From Candidatus Cloacimonadota bacterium (GTDB lineage: Bacteria; Cloacimonadota; Cloacimonadia; Cloacimonadales; Cloacimonadaceae): a stretch of DNA of 39,290 nt. The notes beneath the pieces were generated by a model. The model searched no databases. It saw only the letters and a program-made list of their open reading frames with translations, and was not told where the DNA came from. The first letter of the stretch is position 1, and each line of letters opens with the position of its first letter. The stretch covers positions 1-39,290 of the forward strand of contig JAQVIX010000015.1 of NCBI GenBank assembly GCA_028695495.1, read 5' to 3'. Both the position numbers and the translations under genes were made by a program. Shown here in pieces: positions 13,842 through 39,247 of this stretch.

Positions 13842-16562
13842 TTAATTCTGCTCCGAGATCATCATATTCAAATCACTTATATAAGGTGCAAGCTGATAGC
13901 TTACACGGCTTTCCAGGCGTAGCAACAGATCTTTGATTTCATTGTATTTATCTGTACTAATAGCATAATGCAGTGCCGATTTGGCAAAGTATTCCTGCGA
14001 GGGATAGGCAAGCATGCCTTTTTCTAAATAACGCAATACCACTGAGCTATGGTTTTCCTCCAGATAAGGCATTACCATTCTGAGATAGATACTCCAGCCC
14101 TGCGGATGCTTAAATACCACATTTTCCAGGAAGTGATCCAGCTCATTCCAATCGTTTATGCCGCTATAAAACTTGGTATAGAAATCCGTAAGACGAATCT
14201 CATCCGCAATAAAGACTTTGGCGCGCTGGATATAACCGCGTGCTTTGTCGTAATCGCCTTTTTCTGCCAAATAGGTAGCGGCGCGCACAAAGCCGGCTCC
14301 GTAGTTCATCACCAGCCGCATCATGTTATCATCTTTAAATACCTTTTCATCCTCAATGGAGCGATATTCATAGATTTCATCCAGGTTTTGGATGAGTCTG
14401 GGTCCATTCACGCGCTCTGGCTCGGGAGTAGATACCACCCGCGCTACCATCCCTTCATTTTGGGTATAGTCTTCAAAACCAACATAGTTTTCGCAGGTGA
14501 CGGCAAAGTAGATAGGACGATGCCCAAAGTTTTCCTTGATAATCTGCATTACTGCAAGGTCTGCCACGCGATAGAAGTTTTCGCCCTGACGCCAGTTTGG
14601 AACGGGGTCCAGCTCCAGGGTAAAGCCGAGCGCAGCCTCGGTGCCAGCCACCGGTAGATGCTTTTGCAATCGGCTAATCCGCAGGGCGTCTATCATCTCA
14701 TCTGTAAAGCCAAACTGAATCCCCTCGCGATCCCGCAACTGCTTGATATACCAAGGGGTATTTAGTAGAGAGAGATTCGCCACGGATACATCCTTGCGGA
14801 TTCCTTTTAGCTCGCGATTCTTAAACTCCATTGCCCGCTCAATAGCAGCCAAAGCCTCTTCCGAAGGCGCAATATCGGTAGCGGGATAAACATGCTCTTT
14901 GGCATAAGGATCGTACACTGCCTGCGCATACCACAAGGGGAAGGTATCATTATCCCCATTGGTAAAGATGATGGCGTTCTCTTCCAGAGAGTTCAGGAAG
15001 TTCACCCCATAATCCAGCGCAATAAACTCTTTGGAGCGATCATGCACGTGGTATTGGCTTAACATATTGCCGAGGGGCAAAAGCAGCATGAGAGCCGCTA
15101 CTATCACCTTCGCATATTTACCCTTTAGCAGATTGCAAAGCGCCATTGCTCCGATACCCATCCACACTGCCCACATGTTATATGCCGCCACAAAGAAGTA
15201 ATCGCGATCCCGCACTTCCTGATTCGATAGATTGATCACAAAGACCATGATAATGGAAGTAAAGAGCAGGTTAATGCCAAAATAGAAGAAGCTATGCCGG
15301 TTGCGTTTGGCTTGAAACCAGCCTCCTATCGCACCTATAACGGTGATAAATAGTGCAGATACGCTGGTAGCGATGATCCCAGTAGAGCGTACCAAAGGCG
15401 CCAAAAGCCCTTCCTGGAACCACTGGTCATACAGATAGCGCAGGAAGTGATAGCCCATCTGCTCTTTGAAAAAGGTAGCGCGACGGATTACAAAGCTGGT
15501 ATTGCCATACTGTTTACGCAGTACATAGTCCTTAAACGCCTCCAGGGTAGCGGGGTGCCCTTCGTTGATAAAAGGTCTATCCTGCGCGCGAATCATCAAA
15601 AAGAGATGGCTGGATATACCCAAGATTACAAAGAGGATAGCCAGCGCCCAGAAGCGTTTACCAAATACTTCACGCAATTCTATCGCCAAGATGATGATAG
15701 TAATAAGCGCAAAGCCCCATTTATCAAAATCATCCACGCCTACCTTTTCACCAATACCGCCGGCGATGAAATACCCTGCCAGAATCGCCACAGTATAACC
15801 CACCACCTTGATCCAAAAGCTATCGCGTTTATAGCTGCCAATAAGGAGCGGATAGCATACGATAAAGAGCACTGCTGGCGCTATTTGCAGGGCGGTTTGA
15901 TGCACCGAAAAGCCCACAAAGAAGAGGTAGATAATAAAGAGTAGGATGTACTGATGGCTAAAATCCTCACTCTTTTCCACCCACACCAGGGTAAGCCAGA
16001 TGATGATATTCAAGAAGAAGACCAGCCCCGAATATACCTCCGCCTCTACGGCATTCATCCAAAAGGTAAAGGAGAAAGCAGTATAGAGTCCTGCCACCAC
16101 TCCGGCAAGGATTGCTTCCCAGGGCTTTACCTTGAGCATGCTTACCAGTTTTACGGTAAAGAGATAGGTAAACATTACTGCCAAAGCGGAACTAAGCCCC
16201 GAAATAAAGGCAGCTAATATGCCATGGGGTATAAAGCCGCCAAAGATAGCCATGATGGCTCTGCCAAATACCACGTAAAAGGGGTTTCCGGGAGGATGTG
16301 GTACGCCCATAATGCTGGCACAGGTAGCATATTCGCCACTATCCCAAAAGCTCATGGTGCGCGCCTGCGTAAAGATATAGATTGCCAAGGTAAAGGCAAA
16401 TACCACAAACACCACCAGGCTATTTAGTTTGAACGGCACTACAGCCTGCGGTTTTAGATAGGCTTGATCTATAACCCGGCGGGGCTTAAGCGGCACCTGA
16501 TACTCTTTGCTTTCTTTCTTTTGACTTTGCAGTTGTCGTTTTATTTCTTTGGTTTTAGACAT
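13842..16562 (-). CDS. DUF2723 (TMEM260-like) polytopic membrane protein
   Basis: 906 residues. A basic N-terminus is followed by roughly a dozen transmembrane helices to about residue 510 and then a soluble C-terminal half with helical-repeat character (EKGDYDKARGYIQRAKVF). The first luminal loop has the family hallmark RTMSFWDSGEYATCASIMGVPHPPGNPFY, matching DUF2723, a GT-C-like family common in Bacteroidetes and related phyla; the human homologue TMEM260 is an O-mannosyltransferase. It may therefore glycosylate exported proteins. AGGAG lies 7 bases before the ATG. It directly abuts the oxidoreductase gene but no functional link to it is evident. Confidence 0.88.
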   Translation of the reverse strand: MSKTKEIKRQLQSQKKESKEYQVPLKPRRVIDQAYLKPQAVVPFKLNSLVVFVVFAFTLAIYIFTQARTMSFWDSGEYATCASIMGVPHPPGNPFYVVFGRAIMAIFGGFIPHGILAAFISGLSSALAVMFTYLFTVKLVSMLKVKPWEAILAGVVAGLYTAFSFTFWMNAVEAEVYSGLVFFLNIIIWLTLVWVEKSEDFSHQYILLFIIYLFFVGFSVHQTALQIAPAVLFIVCYPLLIGSYKRDSFWIKVVGYTVAILAGYFIAGGIGEKVGVDDFDKWGFALITIIILAIELREVFGKRFWALAILFVILGISSHLFLMIRAQDRPFINEGHPATLEAFKDYVLRKQYGNTSFVIRRATFFKEQMGYHFLRYLYDQWFQEGLLAPLVRSTGIIATSVSALFITVIGAIGGWFQAKRNRHSFFYFGINLLFTSIIMVFVINLSNQEVRDRDYFFVAAYNMWAVWMGIGAMALCNLLKGKYAKVIVAALMLLLPLGNMLSQYHVHDRSKEFIALDYGVNFLNSLEENAIIFTNGDNDTFPLWYAQAVYDPYAKEHVYPATDIAPSEEALAAIERAMEFKNRELKGIRKDVSVANLSLLNTPWYIKQLRDREGIQFGFTDEMIDALRISRLQKHLPVAGTEAALGFTLELDPVPNWRQGENFYRVADLAVMQIIKENFGHRPIYFAVTCENYVGFEDYTQNEGMVARVVSTPEPERVNGPRLIQNLDEIYEYRSIEDEKVFKDDNMMRLVMNYGAGFVRAATYLAEKGDYDKARGYIQRAKVFIADEIRLTDFYTKFYSGINDWNELDHFLENVVFKHPQGWSIYLRMVMPYLEENHSSVVLRYLEKGMLAYPSQEYFAKSALHYAISTDKYNEIKDLLLRLESRVSYQLAPYISDLNMMISEQN

Positions 16563-38740: not shown

Positions 38741-38853
38741 AACGGGATTTATTTTTTGGTTATATGTGAAACTTATTGATAAATTGAATCTTACAAGCCT
38801 ATTTTTTTTGTTCAGTGTCAATTATGCCCATTCACCGAGCGCAGCGTCCAGGT

Positions 38854-38924
38854 TCTTGGAGTTAATGGCGCTTATCCGCCCTTTATCATACCAACGCCTT
38901 ATGCAAGCGCCATTGACTTCAAGA
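38854..38924. repeat. Long stem-loop with a 20-bp stem
   Basis: The left arm TCTTGGAGTTAATGGCGCTT (38854-38873) pairs over its whole length with 38905-38924; two of the pairs are G-U if it is RNA. The loop is 31 bases. A T-run of eight lies about 50 bases upstream, not downstream, so it does not look like a terminator. Confidence 0.75.
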
Positions 38925-38967
38925 GCCTTTCCCCATGCCAAAACACCATGCGTCAGCCCCCTCTGGT

Positions 38968-38991
38968 GTGCCAAACTCCGATTTGGCACAA
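38968..38991. repeat. Hairpin TGTGCCAAA/TTTGGCACA
   Basis: Nine perfect base pairs around a 6-base loop (CTCCGA). An inverted copy of the same core occurs at 39227-39247. The last base is shared with the next hairpin. Confidence 0.75.
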
Positions 38992-39017: not shown

Positions 39018-39174
39018 ATAATCTACCATTGCGAAGCTCGCGAGCAATTCCTTAAAGAACCCCGTCAGGGGTGACATTTCAGATAGCCCAGGGTGTTCTT
39101 GCCCAAAATGAGCTTGCGAGTTTTGTGCAGAGCAGGATAGCCTCATTTGCATCTTGCAGGATAGATAATAAACA

Positions 39175-39191
39175 AGCGACAAGATGTCGCT
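39175..39191. repeat. Hairpin AGCGACA-AGA-TGTCGCT
   Basis: Seven perfect base pairs and an AGA triloop. First of a pair with 39202-39218, offset by 27 bases. Confidence 0.75.
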
Positions 39192-39201
39192 GTTACATTT
39201 C

Positions 39202-39218
39202 TGTGGCAAGATGCCACA
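39202..39218. repeat. Hairpin TGTGGCA-AGA-TGCCACA
   Basis: Same size and loop as the hairpin at 39175-39191. Three of the seven pairs differ and every change is compensated on the other arm. Confidence 0.75.
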
Positions 39219-39226
39219 ACCACCTT

Positions 39227-39247
39227 CTGCCAAATCGGTTTTGGCAG
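39227..39247. repeat. Hairpin CTGCCAAA/TTTGGCAG
   Basis: Eight perfect pairs around TCGGT. Read on the minus strand it is TGCCAAA-ACCGA-TTTGGCA, nearly the same as the plus-strand element at 38970-38989. Confidence 0.75.

Follow-up and report, generated by a model that had tools for sequence, protein, structure and literature searches.

Two hairpins near the end of a Candidatus Cloacimonadota contig share one loop and differ in their stems by paired changes, which raises the question of why a fold would be kept while its letters change. They lie in a stretch of 39,290 nucleotides, hereafter the window (G000:C43:1-39290, G000 being the window's genome), and the contig ends at 39290. The first-pass annotation had their letters and coordinates exactly right (AGCGACA-AGA-TGTCGCT at 39175-39191 and TGTGGCA-AGA-TGCCACA at 39202-39218), and the three pair changes that it described, A-T to T-A, C-G to T-A and A-T to G-C, are correct; its 27-base spacing runs from start to start and leaves a gap of 10 bases. 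Overall, we interpret the twin hairpins as two head-to-tail REP elements whose cognate enzyme is most likely a RAYT of the HUH/Y1 family encoded on contig C80, and we put the probability of this reading at about 0.88.

Both units are read on the minus strand. Unit 1 (39175..39191) has the 7-bp stem AGCGACA and the loop TCT on the minus strand (AGA on the plus strand), and its tag at 39193..39196 is degenerate (GTAA on the minus strand, TTAC on the plus strand). Unit 2 (39202..39218) has the 7-bp stem TGTGGCA, extended by a T.G eighth pair on the minus strand, and its tag at 39220..39223, GTGG on the minus strand and CCAC on the plus strand, is the REP tag tetranucleotide. A hairpin on the plus strand at 39148..39158 (TGCA-TCT-TGCA, 4-bp stem) may be the decayed remnant of a third, oppositely oriented unit, and a short hairpin resembling it precedes the dimer in locus L003. 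The twin hairpins sit within a mosaic of dispersed repeats at the contig end, and a query made of the window's last 331 bases had 85 genomic matches with E no greater than 1. Contigs of this genome stop at such repeats. Rfam at gathering thresholds returned nothing but a tRNA in the window.

The twin hairpins are real, are not a product of chance and belong to a dispersed family in this genome. The core GRCAAGATGYC was matched 165 times across the whole genome (88 and 77 by strand), compared with 2 matches for the reversed control, and the tagged pattern CARGATG-N6-CYAC, which ignores the 5′ arm and has CYAC, the tag complement, as part of its selection, was matched 148 times (75 and 73 by strand), compared with 1 for its control. 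We sampled 274,469 bases, combining the window with the first parts of 20 contigs (every seventh contig), and found 12 perfect 7-bp hairpins with an AGA/TCT loop compared with 0.3 per shuffle, while 7-bp hairpins with any 3-base loop were near expectation (26 versus 21.7 shuffled). Ten of the 12 lie outside the window, six of them at the RAYT locus on contig C80. The first-pass annotation would have taken the pair for a coincidence had the genome held no further members and relatives shown no conservation, and many more members exist. By crude ORF calls, 26 of 64 family places fall within ORFs of at least 100 aa, many of which are probably made by the repeats themselves. A literature search on the core string returned unrelated work only.

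On the opposite strand, the family unit consists of GTGG or GTAG, a 7-8 bp stem and a TCT or TCC loop, which is the form of a REP element. Among 100 distinct places of the 148, the tag is GTGG in 84 and GTAG in 16, CYAC being part of the selection. Several features that define the GTAG superfamily are present, namely a GTAG/GTGG tetranucleotide beside the palindrome, a short palindrome (stem 5-13 bp), a short loop, high copy number and dispersal. Pairing was scored on the GTRG strand at these 100 places, with positions 1-6 counted from the tag inward, and Watson-Crick pairs were found at 50, 82, 93, 59, 95 and 99 places, respectively. When the 46 distinct hairpins are taken alone, pairing holds in 237 of 276 cells compared with a shuffle mean of 195.4, and 42 cells show a double change compared with a mean of 14.8, neither value being reached by any of 2000 shuffles; all six pair positions show a double change (reached by 8 of 2000 shuffles) and 16 further pair types occur (reached by 91 of 2000), although these counts are not probabilities because the hairpin copies are related. 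The earlier claim that the stem, rather than the sequence, is kept is thus borne out by the double changes and by pairing above the shuffles. The likeliest reason for this conservation is recognition of the hairpin as single-stranded DNA by a transposase.

A candidate for this transposase is encoded in the genome. A search with Pfam Y1_Tnp pointed to two places, on contigs C80 and C68, and the C80 match scored above the cut-off. The C80 ORF (190 aa, L073:1959-2531) is of RAYT type and lies between arrays of hairpins of the present family, which we call class 1 (C80:14329-14418 and 15066-15157); these proximal arrays are direct, and an inverted block lies further 5′. The protein has the Y1 transposase domain with the HUH motif and the catalytic tyrosine that mark a RAYT, and all 12 aligned relatives retain H120, H122 (HxH) and Y180. 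With NCBIfam models, it scores closer to RAYTs than to the IS200 TnpA (54.5 versus 30.7 bits). The score with NF047646 (REP_Tyr_transpos), 54.5 bits, is below the cut-off of 80, which weakens that curated model's name for the protein, not its kind. A phmmer search with the C80 protein found no PDB chain; a structure model of its relative L172 (48% identical; mean pLDDT 87) gave 947 PDB matches, headed by the complex of a RAYT with its REP hairpin, 4er8_A (E 8.9e-7). The C80 protein is therefore RAYT-like. The C68 ORF (L074:1408-1824) is a short IS200-like Y1 transposase whose score with the IS200 model, 53.1 bits against a cut-off of 55, exceeds that with the RAYT model, and no class-1 hairpin lies there among the matches listed.

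The hairpins and the C80 type of RAYT also co-occur across genomes. When 124 genomes of the phylum were searched with the C80 protein, matches of 1e-60 or better were found only in the window's genome, in G013 (59%) and in G011 (54%), and exactly these three genomes hold ranks 1-3 of 124 in tagged motif counts (148 in the window's genome, 99 in G011 and 58 in G013). Rank 4 is G007 with 46 copies, and all of the remaining genomes have 20 or fewer. The RAYT match of G007 is distant (34% identity, two stops), and its hairpins are possibly REPs that have outlived their own transposase. The exact tandem core pattern was found in the window's genome only, one of the 124. The phylum assignment is backed by L189, a named Candidatus Cloacimonadota record, which matches G036, from the same genus as the window's genome, with 100% identity over 3001 bases. 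G011 and G013 carry other stems, and their doublets at RAYT loci are mostly inverted with the tags outside, as are most entries in the motif list of G011.

A scan of genome contigs with the C80 protein gave 25 named loci, mostly from Verrucomicrobia, the rest from Bacteroidales, Planctomycetota, Chloroflexota and, in one case, Cloacimonadota. GTRG-tagged hairpins cluster close to the RAYT gene both here (15 in 21.5 kb within 450 bp and 4 in 152.7 kb beyond) and at 30 RAYT loci of the phylum (37 in 26.0 kb and 0 in 56.0 kb, respectively), and a shuffle control for RAYT flanks, with 350-bp flanks and a slightly different rule, gave 8 in 1.97 Mb. A strict tagged-hairpin test was passed in just 10 of the 30 phylum loci (5 on both sides) and 5 of the 25 named loci (4 on both sides). 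Among hairpins with a 3-base loop at the two sets of loci together, the loop is TCY/RGA in 112 of the 158 that lie no more than 450 bp from the RAYT and in 5 of 34 farther away.

The TCY loop follows the relatedness of the RAYTs in part. Relatives of at least 36% identity have a TCY flank at 20 of 24 named loci and at 9 of 13 phylum loci (the window genome's own included), and those below 36% at 0 of 1 and 3 of 17, respectively. The hairpins flanking RAYT relatives in other phyla differ in stem and share the TCY loop. On a quick tree, the TCY label clusters, with 12 changes compared with a shuffled mean of 17.2 (3 of 500 shuffles as low); the label is not one clade on this tree, and the loop was set aside as a clean clade marker. 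The C80 RAYT groups with those of G013 and G011 both on this tree and in a first tree version (support 99 in the latter); in the first version it falls, beyond these, among Verrucomicrobial and other RAYTs, apart from most Cloacimonadota RAYTs. It is up to 48% identical to Verrucomicrobial RAYTs and about 30-37% to most Cloacimonadota ones. This placement hints at transfer between phyla or at old paralogues.

We next consider how the units are arranged. The 56 clusters with enough flank comprise 19 single, 25 double and 12 larger ones, and all 25 two-unit clusters have the same orientation and a spacing of exactly 27 bp; REPINs, by definition, repeat an inverted doublet, which none of these two-unit clusters is. 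Of 78 neighbouring pairs, 3 are inverted and 75 head-to-tail, with the 27-bp spacing in 69 of the latter. The window pair itself is outside the 56-cluster count, its right flank being too short, and because the same spacing and orientation dominate among the units counted, we regard it as an ordinary example of a head-to-tail dimer that recurs in this genome. The second unit of the 27-bp dimers is tagged GTGG in 24 of 25 cases, and the first GTAA in 12 and GTAT in 4. The stems are unlike in 24 of the 25; random pairing of first and second units would give about 94% by hand calculation, and we therefore claim no excess of unlike stems. Tandem arrays also exist, one of 5.9 copies at 100% identity and another of 7.7 nearly identical units, and ordinary duplication of repeats probably explains the growth of those whose units are identical. 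A CRISPR-like array was ruled out, as the spacers of the 27-bp arrays are repeated rather than unique. Such rigid head-to-tail pairing is unusual for REPs, whose dimers elsewhere are mostly inverted.

The family, its kept pairing, its tag, its RAYT neighbourhood and the co-occurrence are observed, and from these we infer that the RAYT recognizes, cleaves and mobilizes the hairpins. In the putative mechanism, the tag-carrying strand would become single-stranded during replication or under supercoiling, allowing the palindrome to fold. The RAYT would then read the tag, the loop and the stem's shape, and would cut and rejoin the DNA near the hairpin, causing the element to spread or rearrange. 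We propose that the stems drift by paired changes because shape and loop outweigh the stem letters, hence the unlike twins. Several points speak against the REP/RAYT reading: the NF047646 score below its cut-off, the lack of a PDB chain by phmmer, the minority of loci that passed the strict test, the exception of G007 and the direct orientation of the proximal arrays.

Alternatively, the hairpins may act in RNA within 3′ untranslated regions, as stabilizers, weak terminators or sites of processing, the paired changes keeping an RNA stem, which we consider improbable. G-T pairs do exceed A-C mismatches on the tag strand (71 versus 9 at the 100 places and 34 versus 8 in the 46 distinct hairpins); however, among the distinct hairpins this excess is confined to pairs 1 and 4 (14:1 and 18:0) and is reversed at pairs 2 and 3 (1:6), and single-stranded DNA forms G-T pairs too. 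The excess may be one inherited variant; it is a suggestive pointer to the functional strand, which we did not take as proof because it rests on two positions. Likewise, unit 1 was flagged on either strand as terminator-like (2 such calls, compared with 0.7 on average in shuffles), but unit 2 was not flagged in the same scan, and a terminator reading is weak and limited to unit 1. Of the 18 units scored for orientation, 13 have the tag strand in the sense direction of the upstream gene and 5 in antisense; these units are not independent, and their orientation to neighbouring genes gives no clear RNA signal. Moreover, an RNA function leaves the RAYT neighbourhood and the co-occurrence unexplained. 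The earlier hint of a transcribed RNA element was not supported; the GTRG tag, the arrays beside the cognate RAYT gene and that gene itself favour a REP that is recognized as folded single-stranded DNA.

We find it still less probable that the palindrome serves as a symmetric double-stranded binding site for a protein such as gyrase, an IHF-like protein or a repressor. Dimers bound in phase would be well served by a fixed core and a constant 27-bp spacing, and known REPs and BIMEs are reported in the available text of PMC2817692 as sites bound by several proteins. However, a protein reading double-stranded letters does not need pairing to be kept while the letters vary, and the tag makes the unit asymmetric. 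Chance resemblance or simple duplication with no selected structure is practically negligible: duplication does act, as the exact tandem array indicates, but copies are dispersed across many contigs, with stems that differ and still pair, and the match counts against reversed controls (165 versus 2 and 148 versus 1) refute it.

The REP/RAYT reading places the family among known systems, which we compare here on the available portions of the papers cited. Nunvar et al. 2010 (PMC2817692) define RAYTs and their REPs, describe the RAYT gene as flanked by REPs in inverted orientation, and note that the palindrome is preserved among REP variants, which suggests to them that complementary mutations are selected for. 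Di Nocera et al. 2013 (PMC3733652) likewise report stem variants with complementary residues. The GTAG-tagged REPs and REPtrons of these two papers share with our family a 5′ GT(A/G)G tag, a short palindrome, a loop of 2-4 bases, often at least 100 copies, a RAYT gene between copies and complementary stem variants. In contrast to them, the dimers of the window's genome are head-to-tail at 27 bp, and Cloacimonadota is not among the phyla named in those portions. The GTAG-20 repeats of O. terrae (Verrucomicrobia; PMC3733652) are tagged mostly GTGG, as here, and most of the C80 RAYT's named relatives are Verrucomicrobial. Bertels and Rainey 2011 (PMC3116915) argued that inverted doublets are the mobile unit, also mentioned tandem REP arrays and reported compensatory hairpin changes for REPINs; the RAYT-linked doublets are shared, inverted in G011 and G013, whereas neighbouring pairs in the window's genome are nearly all in the same orientation. 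According to the accessible text of Corneloup 2021, the E. coli enzyme still accepts hairpins in which the upper stem has been exchanged for its complement, while a mismatch in the Marinomonas stem is harmful, as are loop changes. The IS200/IS605 TnpA proteins (IS608, ISDra2) have the same fold and were solved with hairpin DNA, but the C80 protein scores closer to RAYTs.

Covariation is thus an already known property of REPs, and the new part here is the head-to-tail 27-bp dimer. Our literature search found no paper that combines REPs with Cloacimonadota, a looser one listed general REP papers and unrelated ones, and the present family, with its likely RAYT, adds this phylum to those with REP/RAYT systems; the kind is known and the organization unusual. 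Since the loop is constant while the stems vary, both within one genome and across phyla, what the RAYT reads in the hairpin becomes directly testable, and the head-to-tail dimers beside inverted-dimer relatives make the moving unit a testable question as well. We speculate, quite tentatively, that the mobilized unit is the head-to-tail pair of unlike REPs fixed at 27 bp, with the tags GTAA/GTAT and GTGG, and that it is handled by a clade of RAYTs common to Cloacimonadota, Verrucomicrobiota, Bacteroidota and Planctomycetota that read the TCY triloop and are blind to the stem letters. If true, the unit of transposition would have changed within one family, evolving from the inverted-pair relatives in G011 and G013.

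Other repeats lie near the hairpins. A second hairpin class, often beside the dimer, occurs in the window at 39227..39247 (CTGCCAAA-TCGGT-TTTGGCAG) and, in the other orientation, at 38967..38990 (TGTGCCAAA-CTCCGA-TTTGGCACA). Its form TGCCAAA-TCGG..-TTTGGCA was found at about 18 distinct places in the loci examined (36 on both strands), often abutting 27-bp dimers, and its letters resemble the Stenotrophomonas S_sp2 REP in the available text of PMC2817692. The Pfam Y1_Tnp search found no second RAYT matching this class in the genome, and it may therefore be an orphan family. Another dispersed repeat, of the CCCCGTCAGGGGTGACATTT... type, covers 39050..39129, and the corresponding part of the query (about 91-170) matched many genome places. 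A 24-nt inverted repeat at 38850-38928 has arms 31 nt apart that are 88% complementary, and letters akin to it follow the array in locus L031. A third hairpin class, CGACAC-GAG(GA)-CGTGTCG with varying stems (L033:1626-1644 and L037:597-616), directly precedes some class-1 hairpins.
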